Shown here in pieces: positions 16,955 through 29,379 of a DNA stretch of 34,657 nucleotides. Under the pieces are notes generated by a model. It was not told the origin of the DNA and made no database searches. It was given only the letters and a program-made list of their open reading frames with translations. The stretch lies in assembly GCA_030432195.1 (NCBI GenBank), contig JAUIHE010000015.1, positions 1-34,657 of the forward strand, in the 5' to 3' direction. The translations under genes and the position numbers were made by a program. Origin of the DNA: Alphaproteobacteria bacterium. GTDB lineage: Bacteria > Pseudomonadota > Alphaproteobacteria > UBA7985 > JAUIBT01. Positions within the stretch are counted from its first letter, which is position 1. The number at the start of each line of letters is the position of its first letter.

Positions 16955-16999
16955 GCCTTTTTTTGTGAAAAAATGGCGGCAAAATGGGCCGCTGCCCTG

Positions 17000-17065
17000 C
17001 GACCACCCCGGCACCACCCCGGCACCACCCCGGCGTCACCCCGCTGCCACCCCGCTGCCACCCCT
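17000..17065. repeat. Six-unit 11-bp tandem repeat
   Basis: Six consecutive 11-bp units share the core CACCCCG or CCACCCC: CGACCACCCCG, GCACCACCCCG twice, GCGTCACCCCG, CTGCCACCCCG and CTGCCACCCCT. They fill the gap between the tRNA-Trp promoter area and the stop codon of the aldo/keto reductase. There are no spacers, so this is not a CRISPR; it looks like slippage-type expansion. Confidence 0.92.
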
Positions 17066-17084
17066 GGGAGCGCTTAGTCCCAGG
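17063..17084 (-). terminator. Hairpin spanning the aldo/keto reductase stop codon
   Basis: CCTGGGA (17063-17069) and TCCCAGG (17078-17084) form a perfect 7-bp inverted repeat with an 8-nt loop that contains the TAA stop (complement of 17074-17076). There is no T-run after it on the minus strand, so intrinsic termination is doubtful; it may act as an mRNA 3'-end stabiliser. Confidence 0.4.
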
Positions 17085-17913
17085 CTGGCGCGCTTGGCAC
17101 CTTGCTGGCGTCCACGATCCGATAGCCGTATTGCTGACCTAGAACATCCATGCGCGCGATTTGCTCTGCGCTTAGGGATTTGCCGTCGGCGGCGAAGTTG
17201 CCTGCGATATTTTGGGGCTTGGTGGACATGGCGTTGTAGGCGACCCCCTTTGCCAAAATCCAGCTCAAGGTGACCTGCGCCGGGCTGAGGCCGGTTTCTT
17301 GCGCGATGGCCAGGATCGTTGGCTCGCTGAGGGCCCTGCCGCGCGCGACGGCGCAGTAGGCGCTCAACGGGATGCCCAGGGCCCGGGCGGCTGCCGCAAC
17401 CTGGCTCTGGTCCAGCAAAGGGTGAAATTCGATCTGATTGCAGGCTATCGGCGCATCAAGCTGGGCTGCCGCTGCCTGCATCATGGCGATGGTGTAGTTG
17501 GAGACGCCAATGTGGCGGGCAAGGCCACGCGCCTGGGCCTCTTGCAGCAACGCCAGCGCTTGGGTGTTGTTGCCGTGTTGATCGGGCCAGTGCAGCAAGA
17601 GGCAGTCGATCTGGCTGCAGTCCAGGGCCTTGAGGCTGGCCTCAAGCGACGGCCAAAAATCACGCGGGTTCATGTTGTCTGGCGCAATTTTGGTCGTCAC
17701 CAGCAAGGAATCGCGCGGCACGTCGGCGTGGCGCAGGGCTTCGCCGACCGCGGCCTCGTTGCCATAGCTCTGTGCGGTGTCAATGGCGCGATAACCAACC
17801 TTGAGCGCCGTCTCAAGCGCCTCGATCAGGGCCTCTCCGTCCAACGGGAAGGTTCCAAAGCCGCGCGTAAACGCAGGGTCTAAGAAGGGAGAAGCGGCGA
17901 TGTCTTGGGTCAT
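17074..17913 (-). CDS. Aldo/keto reductase
   Basis: A 279-residue NADPH-dependent aldo/keto reductase related to the DkgA/DkgB (2,5-diketo-gluconate reductase) group. The catalytic tetrad is Asp45, Tyr50, Lys75 and His108 (in LLLHWPDQ). GVSNYTIAMM and CNQIEFHPLL are family signatures. The cofactor-binding C-terminus has STKPQNIAGNF where many members have IPKS followed by RI, a departure that could alter NADPH binding. It is transcribed away from the large catabolic cluster across a shared 284-bp promoter region, so it may reduce a carbonyl intermediate of that pathway or serve in detoxification. Confidence 0.92.
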   Translation of the reverse strand: MTQDIAASPFLDPAFTRGFGTFPLDGEALIEALETALKVGYRAIDTAQSYGNEAAVGEALRHADVPRDSLLVTTKIAPDNMNPRDFWPSLEASLKALDCSQIDCLLLHWPDQHGNNTQALALLQEAQARGLARHIGVSNYTIAMMQAAAAQLDAPIACNQIEFHPLLDQSQVAAAARALGIPLSAYCAVARGRALSEPTILAIAQETGLSPAQVTLSWILAKGVAYNAMSTKPQNIAGNFAADGKSLSAEQIARMDVLGQQYGYRIVDASKVPSAPAWD

Positions 17914-18064
17914 GGTCGTTCCTTTACGCTCTTGCGCGGCAGGGGGTTATCGGGTGGCGCTTCGACCCTGCGATTGTGCGCTATGCAGCTTGGGCTTGTC
18001 GCGGTCAAAAGCAGCGGCGCCTTCGCGTTGATTGCTTAACTTGCATCTTGCCAAAGCATAGATG

Positions 18065-18093
18065 TTGGCGTAAAGCATAAATCGCTGTATGTC
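18065..18093 (+). promoter_or_regulatory. Candidate promoter of the catabolic cluster
   Basis: TTGGCG (18065-18070), a 17-nt spacer and TATGTC (18088-18093) resemble a sigma-70 promoter, giving a start near 18100 and a leader of about 100 nt to the CoA-transferase ATG. The two copies of AAAGCATA at 18053-18060 and 18072-18079 flank or overlap its -35 region and could be activator sites. Assigned by eye only. Confidence 0.3.
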
Positions 18094-18095
18094 AC

Positions 18096-18105
18096 TAACT
18101 AGTTA
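18096..18105. promoter_or_regulatory. Palindromic operator candidate
   Basis: TAACTAGTTA is a perfect 10-bp palindrome positioned at the predicted transcription start of the catabolic cluster, where a repressor would block initiation. The AT-rich centre stands out in a GC-rich background. No regulator gene lies in the cluster to assign to it. Confidence 0.35.
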
Positions 18106-18197
18106 TTTCGTTAAAGCTCATATTGCCGCGATGCGGGGGCTTGGCGAAAGGCGAGGAAATAGGGGCACGGTAGGACATTTGATCGAGTAGACTTGCC

Positions 18198-19739
18198 ATG
18201 ACCAAACAACTAAGCCCTGAACAGGCCGTTGCGCTTATCCCTGACGCCGCCGTGGTTGCGGTCAACTCATCGAGCGGTCTGTGCTGTCCTGATGCGGTTC
18301 TGGCGGCCCTGGGCGCGCGATTTGAGGCGACCGGCGATATGTTCGGTACAAAGGGCGTCGATCACATCGCCAAGCCGGGTCTGTTGTCCAAAGTTATCGG
18401 CGGCTCCTACCCGTCTGGGCCGTCGTCGGCGGAGCCACCGCTGATCTGGCAGATGATTACAGCCAATCAGGTGAAGGCCTATAATGTGCCCAGCGGGATT
18501 GTCTTTGATATGTTGCGCGAAGCGGCGGGCCAGCGCCCAGGCGTCTTGACCAAGGTGGGCATGCAAACCTTTGTTGATCCCGATCAAGAAGGCTGCGCGA
18601 TGAATGAATCCGCCCAGAGCGAGCCCATCGTCAAGCGGGTCTCCTTCGAGGGTGAAGATTGGCTCTACTTCCAAGCGATACGGCCGGACGTCGCGATCAT
18701 TCGTGGCTCTGTGGGCGATGAACGAGGCAACATCAGTTTTGAGAATGAGGGTGCTTATCTAGGCGCTATGGAAATGGCCCTGGCTGCGCGCAACTGCGGC
18801 GGGCTGGTCATCGCTCAGGTCAGGAACGTCGTGCAGGCGGGCACCATCAAGGCCCACGACGTTAGAGTGCCTGGCAATCTGGTCGATTGCGTCGTTGAAG
18901 CCCCCGACCAACTGCAGACGACGGCGACGCCTTTTGATCCAGCGATCTCTGGCGCGGTCATCCGGCCCCTATCCAGCTTTAGCCGTCCAGCTTTCGACGT
19001 TGCCAAGGTCATCGCGCGCCGCGTTGCTCAAGAGCTGAAGAACGGTCAAGCGGTCAATATTGGCTTCGGTATTTCGGCCAACGTTCCGCGTATTTTGTTG
19101 GAAGAAGGTCTGCACGGCCAGGTGACTTGGGTCATTGAGCAAGGCGCTGTCGGCGGTGTGCCCCTATTGGAATTCAAGTTTGGCTGCTCGGCCAATGCAG
19201 AGGCCTATGTCGCTTCTCCGCACCAGTTCGCCTATTTCCAGGCCGCCGGATTTGACGCCTCGCTTTTGTCGTTCTTGCAGATCGACAAGCAAGGTTCGGT
19301 CAACGTCTCCAAGCTGGCCGCCATTCCCCATCGCACGGCTGGTGCTGGCGGCTTCGTTGATATTACCGCAAGGGCGCGGCGCATCTATTTCTCCGGTTAT
19401 TTCAACGCCGGGGCCAAGTACGCGATCGAGGACGGACTGCTCAAGATCATCAAGGAAGGCAAGATCGCAAAGATCGTTGATAGGGTCGATCAGGTCTCGT
19501 TTTCCGGCGAGCGTGCCTTGGCGCAAGGACAACAGGCGAGCTACATCACTGAGCGATGCGTTATTGAGTTGCGCCCGCAGGGTCTGACTGTCACGGAGAT
19601 AGCGCCAGGTATCGACCTGCAAAGCCAGGTGTTGGATATGGCGGCGACGCCGCTGCAGGTTGCCGACAACCTCAAGACCATGGACGCGCGCTTATTCCAG
19701 CCTGACCCTATGGGCCTTGTGCTGGAGCCCAAGGCATGA
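18198..19739 (+). CDS. Acyl-CoA:acetate/3-ketoacid CoA-transferase (YdiF-like)
   Basis: A 513-residue family I CoA-transferase with alpha and beta halves fused, as in E. coli YdiF and propionate CoA-transferase. It moves CoA between a carboxylate and an acyl-CoA through a glutamyl-CoA thioester. Glu314 in VIEQGAVGG is the likely nucleophile; the glycine-rich GFGISANVP is in the beta half. It is first in the plus-strand cluster and overlaps the enoyl-CoA hydratase by 4 bp (ATGA), which supports a joint role in activating and hydrating a short acid. No separate thiolase or acyl-CoA dehydrogenase is in the cluster. Confidence 0.92.
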   Translation: MTKQLSPEQAVALIPDAAVVAVNSSSGLCCPDAVLAALGARFEATGDMFGTKGVDHIAKPGLLSKVIGGSYPSGPSSAEPPLIWQMITANQVKAYNVPSGIVFDMLREAAGQRPGVLTKVGMQTFVDPDQEGCAMNESAQSEPIVKRVSFEGEDWLYFQAIRPDVAIIRGSVGDERGNISFENEGAYLGAMEMALAARNCGGLVIAQVRNVVQAGTIKAHDVRVPGNLVDCVVEAPDQLQTTATPFDPAISGAVIRPLSSFSRPAFDVAKVIARRVAQELKNGQAVNIGFGISANVPRILLEEGLHGQVTWVIEQGAVGGVPLLEFKFGCSANAEAYVASPHQFAYFQAAGFDASLLSFLQIDKQGSVNVSKLAAIPHRTAGAGGFVDITARARRIYFSGYFNAGAKYAIEDGLLKIIKEGKIAKIVDRVDQVSFSGERALAQGQQASYITERCVIELRPQGLTVTEIAPGIDLQSQVLDMAATPLQVADNLKTMDARLFQPDPMGLVLEPKA

Positions 19740-20533
19740 GCCAAGCCTCGCTACCCCCGTCCGGCGACGCGCGCCTACGCCTGGAATGGCTAGAAGCGGG
19801 TGTTGTGCTTTTGACGATCGACAACGCTGAGCGCCGCAACGCTCTCGATATGGCGATGGTTGAGGCGCTGGGTGCACTTTGCCCCCAACTGGAGCGAGTG
19901 AGCGATCTACGTTGCCTCGTGATCACCGGTGCGGGCGATAAGGCTTTCTGTTCGGGCGGGGATATCGAAGCCTGGTCGCAGCTCTCGCCTGAGGACTTCG
20001 GCCGCTTTTGGCTGCGCGAGGGCAACCGGGTCTTTGACGCGCTGGCTCAACTTCGCCAGCCGGTGATTGCGGTGCTGCAAGGCCACTGTCTGGGCGGTGG
20101 GCTAGAGCTGGCCGCATGCGCCGACTATCGCGTTGGTGAGCATCATATCAAACTAGGCCAACCCGAACCCGGTCTTGGCATCGTGGCAGGTTGGTCGGGA
20201 ACGCAGCGTCTGACACGGCGCTTTGGTGGGCAAGCGGTGCGGCGCATGCTGCTGATGGGCGAGGTCTTGCAGGCCGACGAGGCGTGGCGCTTGGGCCTGG
20301 TTGATCGTGTGGCCGACAAAGGGCAAGGCCTGGCCGCGGCCTTAGAGCTTGCCGAGGTGGTGGCCGCACGTTCGCCGCGCGCCACCGAAGTCAGCAAGAT
20401 GATGATCAATGCCGCGGAAGGCGAAGAAGGCGGGCGCGTATTGGATGCTTTGGCAGGTAGTTCGGCGGCGGCCTCAAGCGAGTTGGCAGAGGGGCTGGCC
20501 GCCTTTCGAGACAAGCGCCGACCCGAATTCTAA
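19736..20533 (+). CDS. Enoyl-CoA hydratase/isomerase family protein
   Basis: A 265-residue crotonase-fold enzyme. The oxyanion-hole segments are FCSGGD (71-76) and GHCLGGG (116-122). Two candidate catalytic glutamates are Glu124 in GGGLELA and Glu144 in GQPE, positions matching the hydratase pair, so hydration of a 2-enoyl-CoA is plausible; isomerases, dehalogenases and hydrolases share the fold. Translationally coupled to the CoA-transferase. The loop WSGTQRL matches the usual GGTQRL region. Confidence 0.9.
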   Translation: MSQASLPPSGDARLRLEWLEAGVVLLTIDNAERRNALDMAMVEALGALCPQLERVSDLRCLVITGAGDKAFCSGGDIEAWSQLSPEDFGRFWLREGNRVFDALAQLRQPVIAVLQGHCLGGGLELAACADYRVGEHHIKLGQPEPGLGIVAGWSGTQRLTRRFGGQAVRRMLLMGEVLQADEAWRLGLVDRVADKGQGLAAALELAEVVAARSPRATEVSKMMINAAEGEEGGRVLDALAGSSAAASSELAEGLAAFRDKRRPEF

Positions 20534-20613
20534 GGCAAGGCGCGCCAGCGTCGCCGCACCCAGACAAGCGTGGTCTCCATAGGCAGGCCGCGATCAAGAT
20601 AGGATCAAGATCC

Positions 20614-21387
20614 ATGACCCAACAGGTCGCACTCATCACAGGAGCCAACAGAGGCATTGGGCTGGCCGTCGCGCAAGCCTTGGCGGCCAAGGGTTTTGCA
20701 GTGGCCATCAACGGCTTGAAGGACGATGACAGCCTTGCAGCCGCTGTGGCTAGTATTACGGACCAAGGCAGGCGGGCGATAAAGGTCCCAGGCGACGTAA
20801 CCAACCTTGAGCGCCACGACGCTATGCTAGCGCGGGTCGAGGATGCGCTGGGGCCGCTGACAACCCTGGTCAACAACGCAGGCGTTCCAGCACTGGCGCG
20901 CGGCGATCTGTTGGAAGTCAGCGAAGCCTCTTATGATCGCTGCATGAACGTGAACGCCAAGGCGCCCTTCTTTCTATCGCAAGCCTTCGCCAAGCGCCTA
21001 GCAGGTCGCAAACGCGAGGAAGGCCTGTTCTATAGTCTTATCAATCTCACGTCTTCGTCGGCGCGGGCGGTGTCGGTCAGCCGCCTAGAATACTGCGTCT
21101 CCAAGGCGGCGGCGGCCATGATGACCCAAGGCTTTGCCGTTCGCTTGGGCCAAGAAGGCATCGCGGTCTATGATATCCAGCCGGGCGTCATTGCTACCGA
21201 CATGACCGCGCCCGTCATTGAAGAATACCAGCGTCGTATTGATGATGAGGGGCTGACCGTCTTGCCCCGCGTGGGCACCCCCCAAGACATGGGCGCAATC
21301 GCTGCCATGTTGGCCAGTGGCGGCATGCCCTATACGACTGGGCAAGTTATTTCCGCCGATGCGGGGCTGTTGATCTCCCGCTATTGA
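20614..21387 (+). CDS. Short-chain dehydrogenase/reductase
   Basis: A 257-residue classical SDR often annotated as 3-ketoacyl-ACP reductase. The cofactor motif is TGANRGIG (9-16), NNAG is at 87-90, the catalytic Ser is about 147, and Tyr160/Lys164 lie in YCVSK. The chain has a C-terminal SADAGLLISRY, close to the usual VDGG ending. The immediate neighbours are a DUF993 protein and a sugar-isomerase fold, so a role as sugar or sugar-acid dehydrogenase is more likely than one in fatty-acid synthesis (inference). It begins 80 bp after the enoyl-CoA hydratase and 37 bp before the next gene. Confidence 0.9.
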   Translation: MTQQVALITGANRGIGLAVAQALAAKGFAVAINGLKDDDSLAAAVASITDQGRRAIKVPGDVTNLERHDAMLARVEDALGPLTTLVNNAGVPALARGDLLEVSEASYDRCMNVNAKAPFFLSQAFAKRLAGRKREEGLFYSLINLTSSSARAVSVSRLEYCVSKAAAAMMTQGFAVRLGQEGIAVYDIQPGVIATDMTAPVIEEYQRRIDDEGLTVLPRVGTPQDMGAIAAMLASGGMPYTTGQVISADAGLLISRY

Positions 21388-21424
21388 CCTGACCACTTCG
21401 TTTTTGATGCAAGGATTGAAAAGC

Positions 21425-22579
21425 ATGTCGTTGCTGCTCCCCGATGCCAAGGGCACGCTTGGCGCCTACACCATGAAGGCCGAACCGATTGTGGGCCAAG
21501 CACTGAGCCCAGAGGCCTCACGGGTGGTCTTTGCTGCGGCGCACGTCGTGGCGGATCCACTGGCAGATGCCGATCCGTCGGGCGCTCCGGCGCTGGATTG
21601 GCAGGCCACGCTGGCCTTTCGCCGTCACCTGCACGGGCTAGGGCTGGGGATTGCGGAGGCCATGGACACCTCTCAACGTGGCATGGGCTTTGATTGGCCG
21701 ACGGCCTTTGAGCTGATCAAGCAGACCCGCCAAGAGTTGCCTGATGCGCTGGTCTTCAATGGCGCTGGCACCGATCAGCTGGAGCCGGAAGACGCGCGCG
21801 ACTTGGGCCAGGTCGAAGTCGCCTATGGCGAGCAGATTGAAGCGATCCAGGCTGCGGGCGGACGGATGATCTTGATGGCCAGCCGGGCATTGGCGCGGGT
21901 TGCGACCAGCCCTGCGGACTACAAGCGCGTGTACAAGAATGCTCTTGCAGCTTGCGATCAACCGATCATCTTGCACTGGTTGGGCGACATGTTCGATCCG
22001 GCGCTTGCTGGCTATTGGGGTAGCCATGATTTTGAGGCAGCGCTCGAAACCTGCTTAGAGATCATCGACGACAACAAAGCCAAGGTTGATGGGATCAAGA
22101 TTTCCTTGCTGGACAAGGACAAAGAAATAGCGATGCGTCGTCGCTTGCCCGCGGGCGTGCGCATGTATACCGGCGACGATTTCAATTATCCTGAGCTGAT
22201 TGCGGGGGATGAACAGGGCTTTTCGCACGCGCTTCTGGGGATTTTCGACCCCTTGGCAGGCGTTGCGGCGGCGGCGATCAATCGCTTGGATACGGGTGAT
22301 CGTGCTGGCTATCATGCGCTGATGGACCCCACGGTGCCCCTTGCGCGCGAGATTTTCCGTGCTCCGACGCAGTACTATAAAACGGGCGTGGTGTTCTTGG
22401 CTTGGCTCAACGGTCTGCAAGATCATTTTGTTATGATTCAGGGCCACCAGGCCATGCGCTCCCTGCCCTATTTTGCACAGGTCTTCCGCTACGCCGACCA
22501 GGCCGGGGTCTTAATGGATCCCGATTTGGCCCAAGCGCGTATGCGGCGTTTGCTGGCGCTCTACGGCGTTGAGGGCTAG
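21425..22579 (+). CDS. DUF993 protein, dihydrodipicolinate synthase-like
   Basis: A 384-residue protein of the DUF993 type, placed with the DHDPS/NAL aldolase superfamily. A (beta/alpha)8 fold with a Schiff-base lysine is expected; Lys225 in VDGIKISLLD is the best candidate. Other conserved-looking segments are AMDTSQRGMGFDW, ILHWLGDMFDP and FNYPELIAGD. Reaction unknown: likely aldol cleavage or dehydration of a keto sugar acid, by fold. The ATG at 21425 has AAGGA 9 nt upstream; starts at 21404 (TTG) and 21407 (ATG) are less suitable. It is followed after 3 bp by the TIM-barrel isomerase, a common pairing for this family. Confidence 0.82.
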   Translation: MSLLLPDAKGTLGAYTMKAEPIVGQALSPEASRVVFAAAHVVADPLADADPSGAPALDWQATLAFRRHLHGLGLGIAEAMDTSQRGMGFDWPTAFELIKQTRQELPDALVFNGAGTDQLEPEDARDLGQVEVAYGEQIEAIQAAGGRMILMASRALARVATSPADYKRVYKNALAACDQPIILHWLGDMFDPALAGYWGSHDFEAALETCLEIIDDNKAKVDGIKISLLDKDKEIAMRRRLPAGVRMYTGDDFNYPELIAGDEQGFSHALLGIFDPLAGVAAAAINRLDTGDRAGYHALMDPTVPLAREIFRAPTQYYKTGVVFLAWLNGLQDHFVMIQGHQAMRSLPYFAQVFRYADQAGVLMDPDLAQARMRRLLALYGVEG

Positions 22580-22582
22580 GCC

Positions 22583-23491
22583 ATGGGCGACGCCGCACCA
22601 GTCTTGCGCGATCTTAGCCAAGATGCCGACCTACTGGCACTCAACACCGCGACGCTTGGTCATAATCTGGACGGCTTTGGCGCGGGATGGAGTTGTGAGC
22701 AGATCATTGATGCTTGCGCTGAGCGTGGGCTTGGCGGCATCACCTTTTGGCGGCGAGAGATCGCGCCGATTGGCACCCCGCGAGCCGCCTTTGAAGCGCG
22801 CGCTATAGAGGTTGGCCAAAAGGTGCGCGGGGCCGGTATGCAGGTAGTGGGCCTGTGTCGCACGCCCTTTGTTGTGGGGCGCATGGCACCGCGACCGCTC
22901 AGCGTCCTGTTCGATGATTTCAAGGCCTCGATCGACATGGCCGCCGCCCTGGGTGCGCCGACCCTGACCATCGTCGTAGGCGGCATTGAGCCGGGTCACA
23001 GCCTGAAGCAAAGTCTAGCGTTGGTGCAAGATCGGGTGGGGCAGATGGCCGACTATGCCGCCGCCCAAAATGTAGGGCTTGGCCTGGAGCCGCTCAATCC
23101 GGTCTACGGCGGCAATCGCTCTTGCCTGACGACGGTCCGTGACGCGGTGGACATGATCCAGGTACTGGATCATCCGGCTGTCGGCCTGGCGGTCGATGTC
23201 TATCACGTCTGGTGGGATTTGAGCCTTGCCGAGCAGCTCCAGCGGCTCAAGCCAAATCAAATCCACGGTTTTCATCTCTGCGATTGGCTGGAGGACACCG
23301 AAGATTTCCTGCTGGATCGCGGCATGATGGGCGACGGCGTGGCCGACCTGAAAGGCCTGCGCGCGGCGGTCGAGGGCGCTGGCTATCGCGGGCTGTGTGA
23401 AGTCGAAATCTTTGCAAAAAATACCTGGTGGACCAAGGCGCCTGGAGAAGTCCTGGACACCTGCGTCGCGCGTTTCAAGGAGGTCTGCTGA
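22583..23491 (+). CDS. Sugar phosphate isomerase/epimerase-like TIM barrel
   Basis: A 302-residue xylose isomerase-like (AP endonuclease 2 fold) protein. A metal site is suggested by Glu169 (GLEPLNP), Asp205 (VDVYHVWWD), His231 (GFHLCDW) and Glu275 (CEVEIF), the usual pattern for divalent-metal sugar or keto-acid isomerases and epimerases. It likely interconverts a keto sugar or inosose-type intermediate; the substrate is unknown. GAGGG lies 7 nt before the ATG. The stop codon shares one base with the start of the next gene (TGATG). Confidence 0.88.
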   Translation: MGDAAPVLRDLSQDADLLALNTATLGHNLDGFGAGWSCEQIIDACAERGLGGITFWRREIAPIGTPRAAFEARAIEVGQKVRGAGMQVVGLCRTPFVVGRMAPRPLSVLFDDFKASIDMAAALGAPTLTIVVGGIEPGHSLKQSLALVQDRVGQMADYAAAQNVGLGLEPLNPVYGGNRSCLTTVRDAVDMIQVLDHPAVGLAVDVYHVWWDLSLAEQLQRLKPNQIHGFHLCDWLEDTEDFLLDRGMMGDGVADLKGLRAAVEGAGYRGLCEVEIFAKNTWWTKAPGEVLDTCVARFKEVC

Positions 23492-23919
23492 TGACCCGCC
23501 AAGAAAGTCACTTGAGCTCGGATGCCGCGGGCCGTCTGGTCGGCGAGGCCTTTAGCTATGCTGAGGCCAAGGGTTGGGCCGTTTGCGTGGCGGTCTGCGA
23601 TGCTTCGGGCAGCCTGCTCGCTTTGCAGCGCGGTGACGCCTGCATCCGCCCGGCGATTGATTTTGCCATAGATAAGGCCTTTACGGCGGCCGGGCTGCGG
23701 CGTGAGACCGAGGCTTTTTTTGAGCGCTGCCAGGAAAAGCCCGCCTTGGCACAAGGCATGACCAATCGCGAGCGCTTGTTGGTCTTTCCAGGCGGTCTGC
23801 CAATTTTTGTAGACGGGGTTTGCGTTGGTGCGATCGGCGTTTCTGGCGCCAGCGATCAAGAAGACGTGGCATGTGGGCGCGCTGCCCTGGCGGCCCTGGG
23901 GCTGAATGGTTCAGCGTGA
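23491..23919 (+). CDS. GlcG/HbpS-like protein
   Basis: A 142-residue protein of the GlcG/HbpS heme-binding family, named after the glycolate operon protein GlcG and the haem-binding HbpS of Streptomyces. The family hallmark is seen in GGLPIFVDGVCVGAIGVSGAS near the C-terminus. No signal peptide, so it is cytoplasmic. Function unclear; members often accompany dehydrogenases of alcohols or hydroxy acids, and here the next gene is a GMC oxidoreductase. The start at 23491 is fixed by AAGGAGG (23477-23483) and overlap with the previous stop. Confidence 0.88.
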   Translation: MTRQESHLSSDAAGRLVGEAFSYAEAKGWAVCVAVCDASGSLLALQRGDACIRPAIDFAIDKAFTAAGLRRETEAFFERCQEKPALAQGMTNRERLLVFPGGLPIFVDGVCVGAIGVSGASDQEDVACGRAALAALGLNGSA

Positions 23920-24014
23920 TGCAGACCAAGAGGCCATTGCCCCGCCTGGGGCGCGCGGACGCTGCCAAGCAAGCAATGCAAGACAGGAAACGTTAGACAA
24001 GGAAGGTCCAAGCC

Positions 24015-25613
24015 ATGGCGAAGCAAAGCTATGATTATATCATTGTTGGTGGCGGCTCGTCGGGCTGCGTTATGGCGGCTCGCCTGTCGGAAATGTCCGA
24101 TGCCAAGGTGCTGTTGCTGGAGGCAGGCGGCAAAGACAGCAACCCTTTTTTGCATATGCCAGTTGGCTTTGCCAAGTTCACCGCGGGGCCTTTGACTTGG
24201 GGCTTCAAGACCGCGCCTCAGCGCCACGCCAACAACCGCGAAATCCCCTATGCCCAGGGTCACGTTCTGGGCGGCGGTTCGTCGATCAATGCAGAGATCT
24301 ATACGCGCGGCAATGCCATTGACTACGATCGTTGGGCCCAGGACGAGGGCTGCCCGGGCTGGTCCTTCGCCGACGTTCTGCCTTACTTCAAGCGCTCAGA
24401 GGGCAACGCCATTTTGTCGGGCACCTATCACGGCACCGATGGTCCCTTGGGCGTTTCGAACCTGACAAACCCGCAACCCTTGTCCTCAGCATTCGTGCAG
24501 TCCTGTCAGGAGCTGGGGATGCCCTACAATCCCGATTTTAACGGGGCCCAGCAGGCTGGCGCCAGCCACTACCAGACCACCATCCGCAACGCTAAGCGCT
24601 GTTCGGCGGCCGTGGGCTACTTGCGTCCGGCGCTTCGTCGGCCCAACCTGGCGCTGAAGACGAAGTGCCAAGTCCAGCGCATCGTGTTTGAAGGGCCGCG
24701 CGCCATAGGCGTTGAGATCATCGAAGGCGGTCGCGCCCAGCTTTTGCGCGCCGACAGCGAGGTCATCGTGACCTCGGGGGCGATTAATTCGCCCAAGCTG
24801 ATGATGCTGTCGGGCGTTGGTCCGGCCGATCATTTAGCCAGTCACGGTATCCAAGTTCATCATGATTTGCCCGGTGTCGGCCAGAACCTGCAAGACCACT
24901 TTGGCATTGATATCGTCTATGAGCTGAAGGGCGCCGACAGTCTGGACAAATACAACAAGCTGCATTGGATGGTCGCTGCGGGTCTGCAGTATAGCTTGTT
25001 CAAGACGGGGCCTGTCACCTCCAACGTTGTCGAGGGCGGGGCTTTTTGGTTCGCCGATCACAGCCGCGACCAGCCAGACTTGCAGTTTCATTTCTTGGTG
25101 GGCGCGGGCGTCGAAGAGGGCGTGCCTGCCATTGCCTCGGGATCTGGTTGTACGCTTAATTCCTATACGCTGCGCCCGAGGAGCAGGGGCTCTGTGACAT
25201 TGGCGTCGGCAGATATGCGCGACATGCCGGTGATCGACCCCAACTTTATTGCGGACCCCTATGATCTCAAAACCTCGGCGGAGGGGGTGAAGATCAGCCG
25301 TGAAATCTTGAACCAACCCTCGATGGCCAAGTACATCAAGCGTGAGCATTTCCCCGGTGACACGATTAGGACCCAGCGAGATTTTGAGGACTATGCCCGC
25401 GAGTATGGGCGCACGTCCTATCACCCTGTAGGGACCTGCAAAATGGGGCAAGACGAAATGGCCGTGGTGGATCCCAGCTTGCGGGTGCGCGGGCTTGAAG
25501 GCATTCGCATTTGCGATTCCTCTGTCATGCCCAGCCTGATCGGCTCCAACACCAACGCCCCCAGCATCATGATTGGGGAAAAGGCCAGCGATCTGGTCCG
25601 CGGCAATCGCTAG
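24015..25613 (+). CDS. GMC-family FAD oxidoreductase
   Basis: A 532-residue glucose-methanol-choline oxidoreductase, choline dehydrogenase-like. The FAD-binding GGGSSGC is at about 12-18 and followed by a Glu-containing LLLEAGG; the GMC signature GGGSSINAEIYTRGN is at about 87-101. The catalytic pair is His470 (SYHPVGTCKMG) and Asn514 (NTNAP). No signal peptide is seen, unlike periplasmic sugar dehydrogenases with a Tat signal. It should oxidise a hydroxyl of a sugar or alcohol to a carbonyl and pass electrons to the respiratory chain or oxygen. Purine-rich AAGGAAGG lies about 9 nt before the ATG. Substrate not predictable. Confidence 0.93.
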   Translation: MAKQSYDYIIVGGGSSGCVMAARLSEMSDAKVLLLEAGGKDSNPFLHMPVGFAKFTAGPLTWGFKTAPQRHANNREIPYAQGHVLGGGSSINAEIYTRGNAIDYDRWAQDEGCPGWSFADVLPYFKRSEGNAILSGTYHGTDGPLGVSNLTNPQPLSSAFVQSCQELGMPYNPDFNGAQQAGASHYQTTIRNAKRCSAAVGYLRPALRRPNLALKTKCQVQRIVFEGPRAIGVEIIEGGRAQLLRADSEVIVTSGAINSPKLMMLSGVGPADHLASHGIQVHHDLPGVGQNLQDHFGIDIVYELKGADSLDKYNKLHWMVAAGLQYSLFKTGPVTSNVVEGGAFWFADHSRDQPDLQFHFLVGAGVEEGVPAIASGSGCTLNSYTLRPRSRGSVTLASADMRDMPVIDPNFIADPYDLKTSAEGVKISREILNQPSMAKYIKREHFPGDTIRTQRDFEDYAREYGRTSYHPVGTCKMGQDEMAVVDPSLRVRGLEGIRICDSSVMPSLIGSNTNAPSIMIGEKASDLVRGNR

Positions 25614-25753
25614 CACGCGCAAACAAGGCGCCAGATGGGCGACACCAATGCCCGCAAAACAGGTTCCGCTTTAAGTTGCTTTGTTCTAACCTTGGCGCGC
25701 GATCGGGCCGCTGAGCCGCTTGCAACCATCACGCTACGTCGGAGAAAACATCC

Positions 25754-26575
25754 ATGAAATTTGTTAGTTTTCAAACACAAGAGGCCGCAGGCGTCGGTAT
25801 TTTGGACGATCAAGGCCGGGTGCGCGATGCCTCTGCAATGGTGCCATCATTGGACTTTCGCGCGCTGCCGACACTCAATCCCAACTTTCTGCCGCTGGTC
25901 GAATGCGAGGTTGCGTTTCATTCGCCCATCGGTCGGCCCGGCAAGTTTATCTGCATTGGCCTGAATTACGCCGATCATGCTGCTGAAACCGGCATGGCTG
26001 CGCCCTCAGAGCCGATTGTCTTCATGAAAGCCTCGTCGGCTTGCTGTGGGCCTTTCGACGATCTGCGCTTGCCAAGGGGCTCGGTCAAAACCGACTGGGA
26101 GGTCGAGTTGGGCGTGGTCATTGGCAAGCCCGCCAAATACGTCAGCAAAGACCAGGCCATGGAGCACGTCGCGGGCTATGTCGTTACCAACGATGTCTCG
26201 GAACGTGAATTTCAAATTGAACGGCAGGGCCAGTGGACCAAGGGCAAATCTTGCGACACTTTCGGACCCATCGGCCCTTGGTTGGTGACGCCCGACGAAG
26301 TGCCGGACCCGCAAAACCTGCGCTTATGGACCAAGGTTAACGGCGAGACTCTGCAGGACGGATCGACCAAGACCATGATTTTTGGCGTGGCAGAGCTGAT
26401 CTCCTACCTCAGCCAGATGATGACGCTGGAGCCGGGCGACGTGATTTCAACCGGCACGCCGCCGGGCGTCGGCATGGGGCTCAAGCCTCAGCGCTATTTG
26501 CAAGATGGCGATGTCATTGAAATTGGCATTGATGGGCTGGGCGCACAAAAACAGCGCGTCGTAGCGGATCGCTAG
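25754..26575 (+). CDS. Fumarylacetoacetate hydrolase-family protein
   Basis: A 273-residue FAH-superfamily enzyme. Metal-binding acidic residues are expected in the conserved WEVELGVVIGK block (Glu-x-Glu) and in YVVTNDVS. CIGLNYADHAAE, KGKSCDTFGPIGPWL and STGTPPGVG are family signatures. The closest class by appearance is the 2,4-diketo-3-deoxy-L-fuconate or rhamnonate hydrolase type, which cleaves a 2,4-diketo sugar acid to pyruvate plus a 2-hydroxy acid (family knowledge, by recollection). That fits a sugar-acid pathway with the SDR as 4-dehydrogenase, but this is inference; acylpyruvase is an alternative. It is followed 3 bp later by the glycerate kinase. Confidence 0.9.
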   Translation: MKFVSFQTQEAAGVGILDDQGRVRDASAMVPSLDFRALPTLNPNFLPLVECEVAFHSPIGRPGKFICIGLNYADHAAETGMAAPSEPIVFMKASSACCGPFDDLRLPRGSVKTDWEVELGVVIGKPAKYVSKDQAMEHVAGYVVTNDVSEREFQIERQGQWTKGKSCDTFGPIGPWLVTPDEVPDPQNLRLWTKVNGETLQDGSTKTMIFGVAELISYLSQMMTLEPGDVISTGTPPGVGMGLKPQRYLQDGDVIEIGIDGLGAQKQRVVADR

Positions 26576-26578
26576 CTG

Positions 26579-27901
26579 ATGAAACGAGGGTCTGTTCATG
26601 TATCAAAGGGCCTAGCGCAGGCCGATACGCGTCGCGGACAATGCTTGTCCCTATTCGAGGCTGCGCTTGGGGTAGCCTTGCCGGACGGGCGTTTTGAGCC
26701 TCTTCCAGAGCCCCCGCAAGTTGGCGGGCGGGTTATCGTGTTGGGGGCGGGTAAGGCTGCCGCCAGTATGGCGCTAGCCTTCGAAGCGGCTTGGCGAGAA
26801 CGGTATCCGGATGTGTCTTTGGAAGGGCTGGTCATTACCCGATATGGCCATGAGGCCGTGCCGAAAGCCGGTCTACCAGCGAGCCAGATCAAACAGCTCT
26901 TGGCGGCTCACCCTGTGCCCGATGAAGCCGGACTTGAAGCCACCAGAGAGCTGATGGCCCTTGCTCAGTCGGCCAAGGCAGAGGATTTGGTGGTTTTTCT
27001 GCTGTCGGGTGGTGCGTCGGCCTTGTTGGTGGCGCCAGCCGAAGGCGTGAGCTTGGCGGAAAAACAGGCTGTCGGCAAAGCCCTGTTGAAGGCGGGGGCT
27101 AATATCGAGGCCATGAACACCGTGCGCCAGGCTTTATCGGCGGTCAAGGGCGGACGCCTGGCAGAGCTGATCCACCCCGCGCATCTTGTCACCTATGCGA
27201 TTTCTGATGTTCCAGGCGATGTGCCTGCGGTGATCGGCTCTGGGCCTACCAGTCCCGCGCTTGGGGATACCGCAAACGCCGAGGCTTTATGTCAACGCTT
27301 TGGTATCGCGCTTGGATCCGGATTGCGCGAGGCAATGAAAGCCAACCCTAGCCCCCAGGTGCCCGACGGCGATTTTCGCATGATCGCCACCCCGCAAATG
27401 GCTTTGGAGGCCGCCGCCGAGCGGGCCCGAGAGGTGGGCCTATCGCCGATGATCTTGTCCGATTGTGTCGAAGGGGAAGCGCGTGAAGTGGCACAGGTCA
27501 TGGCCAGCTTGGCCAAGCAGGTGCAGCGCCACAACCAGCCTTTGAGCGCACCTTGTGTACTTCTGTCGGGTGGGGAGACCACCGTCACCGTTCGCGGGCA
27601 AGGGCGCGGCGGGCGCAATGCAGAGTTTTTGTTGGCTCTGGCGATTGCCCTGGATGGTCTGGCGGGCGTCACGGCGCTGGCTTGCGATACCGACGGCATC
27701 GACGGCATAGAAGATAACGCAGGCGCCATGATCGACCCAACGACCTTGAGTCGGGCTCAGGCACTAGGTCTGGATGCGCGCGCCTACCTGGACAACAACG
27801 ATGCCTACAGCTTTTTTGAGGCGCTGGGCGATCTGGTCATGACCGGTCCGACGCTAACCAATGTCAACGATTTTAGGGCGATCGTGATTGCGCCGCACTA
27901 G
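26579..27901 (+). CDS. Glycerate 2-kinase (DUF4147/MOFRL type)
   Basis: A 440-residue type 2 glycerate kinase, forming 2-phosphoglycerate from D-glycerate and ATP. The N-terminal DUF4147 domain has GAGKAAASMA (about 59-68) and SDVPGDVPAVIGSGPT mid-protein. The MOFRL domain has GGRNAEFLLALAIAL and CDTDGIDGIEDNAGAM near the C-terminus. Length matches the family. It is the only clear gateway from this cluster into central carbon metabolism, so the pathway should yield glycerate. The start has only a weak ribosome-binding site, consistent with coupling to the FAH gene 3 bp upstream. Confidence 0.94.
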   Translation: MKRGSVHVSKGLAQADTRRGQCLSLFEAALGVALPDGRFEPLPEPPQVGGRVIVLGAGKAAASMALAFEAAWRERYPDVSLEGLVITRYGHEAVPKAGLPASQIKQLLAAHPVPDEAGLEATRELMALAQSAKAEDLVVFLLSGGASALLVAPAEGVSLAEKQAVGKALLKAGANIEAMNTVRQALSAVKGGRLAELIHPAHLVTYAISDVPGDVPAVIGSGPTSPALGDTANAEALCQRFGIALGSGLREAMKANPSPQVPDGDFRMIATPQMALEAAAERAREVGLSPMILSDCVEGEAREVAQVMASLAKQVQRHNQPLSAPCVLLSGGETTVTVRGQGRGGRNAEFLLALAIALDGLAGVTALACDTDGIDGIEDNAGAMIDPTTLSRAQALGLDARAYLDNNDAYSFFEALGDLVMTGPTLTNVNDFRAIVIAPH

Positions 27902-27990
27902 GCTAGCTTGTTACCTCCTGGCGGTGTTGCGGTAAGGTCGGGGCTGTGTCAGGTTCTTTCAGCCACGCCCACCACAGAAAGTTCCGCCTC

Positions 27991-29379
27991 ATGGCTGATC
28001 CGTCCCAGAAAACAGACCTGAGCGGTTTTTCGGTACCGCTGGCCCGGCGAGCCGCCTACGGTCTGCCCGACGTCGGTGTTGGCATCTTTGTCACGCTGAA
28101 GGCGGTACTGCTGCTGCCCTTCATGACCAAATATCTCGGCATCCCGATTGAATTGGCAGGTCTGGTTCTGACTGCCGGGCTCTTGCTCGACATCCTTACC
28201 GATCCGATTGTGGGTTGGCTATCTGACAACACGCGTGGGCGCTGGGGCAAGCGAGTGCCCTATATCGCAGCGGGAGCAGTGGTGTTGGCTGCGGCGACGG
28301 CGCTGATTTTCGCCGTGCCAGCGGATTGGCAGGGAGCCGCCGCCGCGCGCTGGGTGTTTGCCAGCTTCGTCTTGGCGACCTTGGGCTATACGCTGATTAT
28401 CATTCCCCATGGGGCGATGACGGCCGAGATGACCATGAGCCCCGGCGAGCGCTCGTCTTTGACAGGCTGGCGGATGGCCTTGTTTTCGATTGGCATTTTG
28501 ATCGCCGGGGGCGTGCTCCCCGGCCTGATCGAGGCCTTTGGCGGCGGGCGCAGCGGCTCGTTTTGGGGCTATTTGGCCATGGTGCCGCTGATTGTCCTGC
28601 CAAGCTGGCTCGCGTGCTGGGCGATTAAGCGCTATGATCAAGCGCCGCCTCAGCCCATTCAAAGCCCGTGGGCGCAAATTTCTAAGGTATTGAAGAACAG
28701 AAGTTTTTTTTTGCTGATGGGCTTGTTTTCGCTGCAGCTTTTGGGCTTTGCCTTCATTACTCAGTCGATTGATTTCTTCTCAACTTACCTAGTCTTGGAC
28801 CAAAACCCGGATGGTTTCTTTGGCCTGGTGGGGGTATTGGGCACCTTTGCCACTATGTTTGCGCTGGTCACGCTGGCTTCCATGGCCTCGCAGCCGTTTT
28901 GGACCTTCGCTTCGGTTTGGCTGGGCAAGATGCGCGCCTACCAGGTTGGCATGGCCGGATTTGCGCTGCTGATGGCAGGTTTCTACTTCACTTTGCCAAG
29001 CTATGATATCGACGCGACCTGTTGGTATGTGGTGGCGATCGGAATTTTTTATGGCTGTTTGCTGCAGCTGCCATGGGCGCTGATGCCCGATCTGATTGAG
29101 TCCAGCCTCGATAAAGAGCGGCGCGGCATTGGGGCCTTCAATGCCTACTGGCTATTTGGTCAGAAATTGGCCAATGCAGCGGGGCCCGGACTGTTGGCAC
29201 TCATTTTGGGCGCCTATGGTTGGCAAGAGAGTACGAAGGGGGCCGCGGAACAAAGCGACGGTGCCCTTTCAGCCCTGGCAGCGACCATGACGCTTGCGCC
29301 AGCAGGGATCTTTGCCTTCAGTGTGATATTGCTGATTTGGCTGGAGCGATATCTGCAAAGAAGTGCCGAAGGATCTTAG
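27991..29379 (+). CDS. MFS/GPH-family sugar:cation symporter
   Basis: A 462-residue inner-membrane transporter with about 12 hydrophobic segments. It resembles the glycoside-pentoside-hexuronide (GPH) family: AAYGLPDVGVGIF at the start, DPIVGWLSDNTRGRWGKRVPYI between segments 2 and 3 (the conserved GPH loop), and a matching central loop ahead of KNRSFFLLMG. It would import a sugar, glycoside or uronide with a cation. The start is uncertain: ATG 27991 gives the natural N-terminus MADPSQKTD, but an in-frame GTG at 27946 has AAGG 8 nt upstream and would add 15 residues. Its stop is 7 bp from the stop of glk on the other strand. Confidence 0.88.
   Translation: MADPSQKTDLSGFSVPLARRAAYGLPDVGVGIFVTLKAVLLLPFMTKYLGIPIELAGLVLTAGLLLDILTDPIVGWLSDNTRGRWGKRVPYIAAGAVVLAAATALIFAVPADWQGAAAARWVFASFVLATLGYTLIIIPHGAMTAEMTMSPGERSSLTGWRMALFSIGILIAGGVLPGLIEAFGGGRSGSFWGYLAMVPLIVLPSWLACWAIKRYDQAPPQPIQSPWAQISKVLKNRSFFLLMGLFSLQLLGFAFITQSIDFFSTYLVLDQNPDGFFGLVGVLGTFATMFALVTLASMASQPFWTFASVWLGKMRAYQVGMAGFALLMAGFYFTLPSYDIDATCWYVVAIGIFYGCLLQLPWALMPDLIESSLDKERRGIGAFNAYWLFGQKLANAAGPGLLALILGAYGWQESTKGAAEQSDGALSALAATMTLAPAGIFAFSVILLIWLERYLQRSAEGS

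Follow-up and report, generated by a model that had tools for sequence, protein, structure and literature searches.

The DUF993 protein encoded in the window (the term used here for the whole 34,657-nucleotide stretch of alphaproteobacterial DNA that was analysed) may be a divergent Schiff-base, or class I, lyase built on a barrel like that of dihydrodipicolinate synthase (DHDPS) and acting on a freshly made ketone, a reading for and against which our confidence is about evenly balanced. The evidence comes from the fold of a structural model, from a lysine, Lys225, that recurs throughout the family, and from the company that the gene keeps in other genomes.

Organisation of the locus

The genes lie in the order aldo/keto reductase (AKR), CoA transferase, crotonase, short-chain dehydrogenase (SDR), DUF993, xylose-isomerase-like TIM barrel (hereafter the TIM protein), HbpS-like protein, GMC oxidoreductase, FAA-hydrolase family protein (FAH), glycerate 2-kinase and GPH symporter, and all those after the AKR are on the + strand, as far as position 29379 (Table 1). 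With the DUF993 stop codon closing at 22579 and the ATG of the sugar-isomerase-fold neighbour at 22583, only 3 bases separate the two genes, just as a preliminary description of this DNA had stated. The phrase "fused by context" used there is apt for the adjacency on the DNA, but these are two separate genes and the fusion is one of wording. A longer DUF993 frame starting at a TTG at 21404 is possible; comparison with a sister genome, G398, for which the ATG form alone was used, gave an alignment beginning at residue 1. The codons for His184 and Lys225 are at 21974-21976 and 22097-22099 respectively. The genome to which the window belongs, at 86% completeness, yielded a single copy of DUF993. 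The AKR is DkgB-like, but falls below the NCBIfam DkgB cut-off (227 against 327 bits). Past the cluster, on the - strand between 29387 and 34396, there are genes for glucokinase, glucose-6-phosphate dehydrogenase and an ILVD/EDD-type dehydratase, a combination resembling an Entner-Doudoroff set.

Table 1. Coordinates of the DUF993 gene and the features around it in the window.
Feature	Position	Strand	Match
Module absent from the G399 site (AKR, CoA transferase, crotonase, SDR, DUF993, TIM, HbpS, GMC)	16966-25751		
Aldo/keto reductase (AKR), divergent	17074-17913	-	PF00248 E 1.8e-47
CoA transferase, one-chain, YdiF/FadX-like	18198-19739	+	PF01144 E 1.2e-25; 2ahu YdiF E 1.6e-92
Enoyl-CoA hydratase/crotonase family	19736-20533	+	PF00378 E 6e-44
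Short-chain dehydrogenase (SDR), directly upstream of DUF993	20614-21387	+	PRK12745 333 bits, cut-off 250 (NCBIfam)
DUF993 protein, 384 aa, ATG start	21425-22579	+	PF06187 E 7.5e-180
Xylose-isomerase-like TIM barrel, 302 aa	22583-23491	+	PF01261 E 6.9e-34
HbpS-like protein, 10-bp overlap with TIM gene	23482-23919	+	PF03928 E 1.8e-33
GMC oxidoreductase, choline-dehydrogenase-like	24015-25613	+	PF00732/PF05199; 9lq0 E 1.5e-115
FAA-hydrolase family (FAH), glycerate 2-kinase (DUF4147/MOFRL), GPH symporter	25754-29379	+	Pfam

The DUF993 protein and its TIM-barrel partner

The protein matches the Pfam DUF993 model with 598 bits against a curated cut-off of 24, over residues 4-382 and hence its full length, and a Pfam search at E up to 0.001 returned DUF993 alone, without a match to the DHDPS model PF00701. 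An AlphaFold2 model computed from 51 rows (pLDDT 93.7) has eight barrel strands and displays the (beta/alpha)8 barrel and C-terminal helices seen in the DHDPS/NAL class I aldolase superfamily. Compared with solved structures, the model gave a Z of 57.6 with 4dnh, and with DHDPS chains a Z of about 30 and an rmsd of 2.4 A over 287 residues; the best chain from outside DUF993 was found by Foldseek at an E of 5.6e-11. The fold predicted for the protein is DHDPS-like, and the likeness to the superfamily extends to a strand-6 lysine, an equivalent of Thr44 and a G-x-D after strand 7, whereas about 30 additional N-terminal residues set DUF993 apart from DHDPS. The DHDPS-like nature of the family was already known from public annotation, in which DUF993 proteins read "dihydrodipicolinate synthase family protein". 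A solved relative dates from 2012; this is 4dnh, the protein SMc04132 of Sinorhizobium meliloti, itself a DUF993 protein with 60% identity and the same fold over 381 residues, which is titled a hypothetical protein and has no known difference from that of the window. A relative of the TIM protein from the same organism, SMc04130, has likewise been solved (3qc0, 3ju2).

Conservation was assessed on 123 stretches, which yielded 121 distinct DUF993 proteins, the lowest identity to the window protein being 45%. Lys225 is identical in all 121, as are His184, Asp81, Thr82, Arg85, His40 and Asp251. It lies on a predicted strand (221-227), the sixth of eight in the model, in which Gly223, Lys225 and Ser227 are fixed (121, 121 and 120 of the 121 respectively) and positions 224 and 226 vary among hydrophobics, the pattern expected if Lys225 faces the barrel. 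The barrel mouth, under the definition adopted here, shows no enrichment in invariant polar residues as a group (5/18, p 0.40).

The correspondence with DHDPS was sought with HHalign, using the DUF993 alignment and 27 DHDPS-family proteins from relatives' genomes (27 of 30 fetched loci, with L132, L134 and L144 left out); a further alignment, A2, held the window protein and 50 of the 80 scan loci described below, hand-picked for spread. Lys225 pairs with the DHDPS Schiff-base lysine in 6/6 reference rows, and the same register, again in 6/6, pairs Thr82 with Thr44, Gly250 with Gly186, Asp252 with Asp188 and His184 with Tyr133. The match is weak (probability below 0.5%, E 0.13-0.32, score 15.9-19.0) and its score is not above that of controls, 40 column shuffles reaching 19.45 and the reversed alignment 19.70, whilst the TIM alignment against DHDPS scored 19.74 and DUF993 against TIM 15.08. 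The score was consequently dropped as proof of the register. Only the aligned length stands out, at 226-232 columns compared to 10-49 in the eight best-scoring shuffles, 14 for the reversed alignment, 80 for TIM against DHDPS and 47 for DUF993 against TIM; in global mode 2 columns of DUF993 and DHDPS were aligned. Since the controls match the score, the register rests on the alignment in combination with the fold. The preliminary description had named Lys225 as a putative Schiff-base residue and would have given up the idea had it not been conserved; that part of the test was passed, the residue being the same in 121/121 proteins, and its predicted place on strand 6 of the DHDPS-like model, aligned with the Schiff-base lysine of DHDPS, agrees with such a role.

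In DHDPS itself Lys161 forms the imine, and Tyr133, Thr44 and Tyr107 relay protons. Tyr133, Tyr107 and Arg138 were each present in 27/27 of the DHDPS-family comparators, but in the HHalign register the place of Tyr133 is taken by His184 in 121/121 DUF993 proteins and that of Tyr107 by Leu156 (Leu in 119/121). The column of Arg138 falls, across an 11-residue insertion that follows strand 5, on position 200, a correspondence that is unsure; the residue there is Ser in the window protein, for which this alignment shows no counterpart of Arg138, and among the 121 proteins it is Thr in 45, Ser in 38, Ala in 15, Gly in 7 and His in 4. Thr44 is kept as Thr82, whereas Thr45 is replaced by Ala (107/121) or Ser (14/121) and Glu47 by Arg. 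An identity as DHDPS proper was rejected, Tyr133, Tyr107 and the Pfam DHDPS model all being unmatched. Because both tyrosines are replaced, pyruvate chemistry should not be assumed for DUF993, and the reaction with pyruvate or hydroxypyruvate envisaged in the preliminary description is unsupported. Its wider suggestion of a class I aldolase or dehydratase is favoured by the fold and the conservation and weakened by the loss of these helper residues. Fold and conservation together support the idea of a class I enzyme, with Lys225 as the residue that would form the Schiff base, and the mode of action of DUF993 may be that of a class I aldolase although the full set of residues that defines DHDPS is not present.

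The model of the TIM protein (pLDDT 94.8) matches SMc04130 (3qc0, Z 37.1), 7vpf (Z 36.6) and IolI (1i60, Z 28.9). In alignment A3, the 34 rows of which are the window protein and 33 of 62 listed TIM homologues hand-picked for spread, Glu169, Asp205 and Glu275 occur in 34/34 rows and residue 231 is His in 31, with Gln in three Streptomyces rows. A profile alignment pairs Glu169, Asp205, His231 and Glu275 with residues of the same four types in IolI, and the predicted metal site, claimed earlier to be intact, has these residues in place, conserved and aligned with IolI. The fold is common to IolI and the ketose 3-epimerases. The protein is set apart from these by falling far under the cut-offs of the NCBIfam equivalogs for hydroxypyruvate isomerase, 5-keto-L-gluconate epimerase and 2-oxo-tetronate isomerase (31.1/353, 41.9/300 and 24.7/325 bits respectively) and by carrying a D-x-Y-H-x-W-W-D stretch that is invariant in its homologues (34 rows of A3). 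Isomerases, epimerases and dehydratases all occur in the xylose-isomerase-like superfamily, and the TIM protein could be any of the three.

Gene neighbourhoods of DUF993

Of 398 genomes sampled from the phylum of the window, 36 carry DUF993, and one scan of named genomes gave at least 594 relatives. The neighbourhoods of 90 loci were compared, comprising the window, the best 80 of those at least 594 relatives and 9 plasmid records hand-picked among the matches listed (147 matched in all). A single query, or at most two, represented each neighbour family in the tblastn scoring, an approach by which distant homologues may be missed, and the ORF clustering used recovers DUF993 in 84/85 stretches. 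A TIM homologue is present in the fetched stretch at 77 of the 90 loci and lies directly downstream on the same strand at 69; of the 13 that have none, two (L046 and L064) end just past DUF993. This pairing is not chance. Distances among the DUF993 proteins correlate with those among their TIM partners at r 0.90 (n=77), a value that includes shared species history, compared to at most 0.13 in 500 permutations.

Two contexts were distinguished, A-type loci having an SDR or a CoA transferase and no Gfo/Idh protein and B-type loci having Gfo/Idh anywhere in the stretch; 40 loci, the window among them, are A-type, 47 are B-type and 3 are neither. The gene directly upstream of DUF993 encodes an SDR in 31/40 A-type loci, the window included, and Gfo/Idh in 45/47 B-type loci, so that a dehydrogenase occupies this position in 76 of the 87. 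Other frequent members of A-type loci are CoA transferase (33/40), acyl-CoA dehydrogenase (27, the window not among them), crotonase (24), GMC oxidoreductase (23), aldehyde dehydrogenase (21), aldo/keto reductase (18) and MOFRL glycerate kinase (11), whilst B-type loci include an enolase-superfamily-like protein (28/47), an NMT1-type binding protein (24/47) and parts of a TctC-type carboxylate transporter (9/47). An HbpS-like gene was found at 2/90 loci, one being the window, and FAH with GPH in the window alone. The earlier suggestion that the TIM protein feeds substrate to DUF993 was not borne out, a dehydrogenase accompanying DUF993 about as regularly (SDR in 34/40 A-type loci and, by definition, Gfo/Idh in 47/47 B-type loci, against 77/90 for TIM) and the neighbourhoods giving no order of steps. 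Nor did the neighbouring genes at the 90 loci yield a substrate for DUF993.

In a quick tree the window sits in a clade made up of 34 A-type rows (SH-aLRT 99); outside it fall 6 further A-type rows, five from Mesorhizobium and the sixth L148. The three context labels require 6 changes on this tree, whereas shuffled labels need 31.9 on average. The DUF993 protein of Enemella, a member of the Actinomycetota, is nested in a mostly alphaproteobacterial part of the window's clade, a position that suggests transfer. The record L082 bears the name Frankia sp. RB7, but its DUF993 protein groups among those of Bradyrhizobium, and it is possibly mislabelled or contaminated.

Several individual loci deserve mention. 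A divergent enolase-superfamily-like protein in L146 (11172-12584) reached 30.3 bits with MR_MLE_C against a cut-off of 29.4 and had no match in a PDB sequence search at E 1; that of L074, at 19.7 bits, is below the cut-off. An 832-aa open frame joining Gfo/Idh to DUF993 in L105 (8654-11152), from a Gemmatimonadetes MAG, is doubtful as a fusion, the linker looking like an intergenic repeat and, judged by eye, resembling sequence close to where this open frame begins. Small Dabb-domain proteins recur near DUF993 (11/40 A-type loci with two queries; for example L033:7463-7774 and L148:2131-2445). Plasmid pAO1 of Paenarthrobacter (L034) has consecutive genes for a GMC oxidoreductase, AldH, Gfo/Idh, DUF993 and a glycerate kinase of the GlxK type, and a TIM homologue was not found in its fetched stretch.

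Comparison with related genomes bears on the limits of the module. The sister genome G398, which lies outside the 90 loci, carries 12/12 of the genes tested, glk included, at 80-94% identity, and has FAH and GPH also. G399, which is of the same genus and 99% complete, is without window positions 16966-25751 at this site (BLAST against L167). The missing block amounts to 8.8 kb beside tRNA-Trp and is present in G398, and FAH, glycerate kinase and GPH are kept in G399 between the same tRNA-Trp and glk. DUF993 was not found anywhere in G399, nor in any of 8 same-order genomes searched (G400-G407), and a search for the CoA transferase across the whole of G399 gave a 40% paralogue only. Since G399 keeps the glycerate-kinase block without the DUF993 module, the "cluster" is better regarded as two modules. 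The DUF993 module is accessory and was probably gained, and the window's glycerate kinase may lie outside it, though such kinases sit in other A-type loci.

No function was found for DUF993 (PF06187) or for its solved relative SMc04132, and the family name and Pfam accession are absent from the open-access literature searched. In the same literature 4DNH, 3QC0 and SMc04130 are not mentioned, the string 3JU2 occurs only in unrelated mathematics, and terms for the neighbouring enzymes, the cluster and the fold gave nothing relevant. There is published work on the sugar enzymes of pAO1. The available part of one paper on this plasmid does not discuss the DUF993 cluster (PMC10494377). A hint as to expression comes from the available part of another paper, in which the entry for SMc04132 stands next to that for SMc04133, a putative oxidoreductase, both with negative values, in what is taken as module 6, and in which modules 4 to 6 are enriched in proteins lowered on phaR deletion (PMC12542648). 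Within that part of the paper, these values fit co-expression of DUF993 with the oxidoreductase.

Proposed chemistry and its alternatives

In the scheme proposed here, the dehydrogenase encoded directly upstream, the SDR in the window and Gfo/Idh in the other context, would make a ketone from a polar, sugar-like substrate, with which Lys225 would condense; His184, in the place of DHDPS Tyr133, and Thr82 would then move protons and a C-C bond would be cut by a retro-aldol reaction. The TIM barrel, with its predicted metal site, would belong to this pathway too, isomerising, epimerising or dehydrating either the substrate or a product. In A-type loci the CoA transferase and crotonase might carry one product on as a CoA ester, a step in which the acyl-CoA dehydrogenase would share at the 27 loci that have one. 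Fold, conservation, gene order and co-occurrence are direct results of the analysis, from which the Schiff base, the retro-aldol cleavage, the sequence of steps and the class of substrate are inferred. A more specific version, that of a class I lyase in which a histidine relays protons and which acts on a keto-sugar other than a simple pyruvate aldol, in which A-type loci are one mobile module joining sugar oxidation to enzymes of CoA-ester beta-oxidation, is considered rather unlikely as a whole. We know of no route in the DHDPS-like superfamily that joins sugar-like compounds to CoA-ester beta-oxidation.

The DHDPS-like superfamily also contains 2-keto-3-deoxy-L-arabonate dehydratase and 5-dehydro-4-deoxyglucarate dehydratase. 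The fold serves both chemistries, and DUF993 might be a Schiff-base dehydratase and not a C-C lyase. The enolase-superfamily-like protein near DUF993 in over half of the B-type loci (28/47), together with the carboxylate transporter parts in nine, would suit such a sugar-acid route, but the enolase-like gene is found in 0/40 A-type loci (one query), where the set continues with CoA enzymes instead, and dehydration is judged quite unlikely. It is very unlikely that Lys225 has an electrostatic role only and that DUF993 is a metal-dependent or other non-Schiff-base enzyme on the same fold: the invariant His40, Asp81, Arg85, His184 and Asp251 could form a different centre and the DHDPS helper residues are changed, but Lys225 is both invariant and in register with the Schiff-base lysine, and no metal-dependent member of the superfamily is known to us.

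The order of events favoured in the preliminary description, in which the TIM protein isomerises or epimerises the substrate and then hands it to DUF993, is possible though somewhat doubtful. The adjacency of the genes in 69/90 loci speaks for it, as do a metal site aligned with that of IolI and a fold common to other isomerases and epimerases. Against this, 13/90 loci have no TIM gene in the stretch, if in two cases because the contig ends there, gene neighbourhoods give no order for the two steps, and the TIM superfamily includes dehydratases as well, among them IolE and the QuiC-like fusion protein 5hmq, which we take to have dehydratase activity. It is also somewhat unlikely that the ten + strand genes from CoA transferase to GPH symporter make up a single pathway, with DUF993 as the source of the glycerate used by the glycerate kinase. 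A MOFRL glycerate kinase does occur in 11/40 A-type loci, the window included, and on pAO1 a GlxK-type kinase directly follows DUF993; however, G399 has FAH, glycerate kinase and GPH at the same site without the DUF993 module, FAH and GPH accompany DUF993 in the window alone among the 90 loci, and the kinase may be an older neighbour.

DUF993 is a known family with a solved fold and an unusual catalytic set. It is common, and given its two recurring contexts, a frequent partner gene and catalytic positions unlike those of all 27 comparators, a divergent Schiff-base lyase acting on a newly formed ketone can be put forward as a specific and testable proposal for its chemistry.
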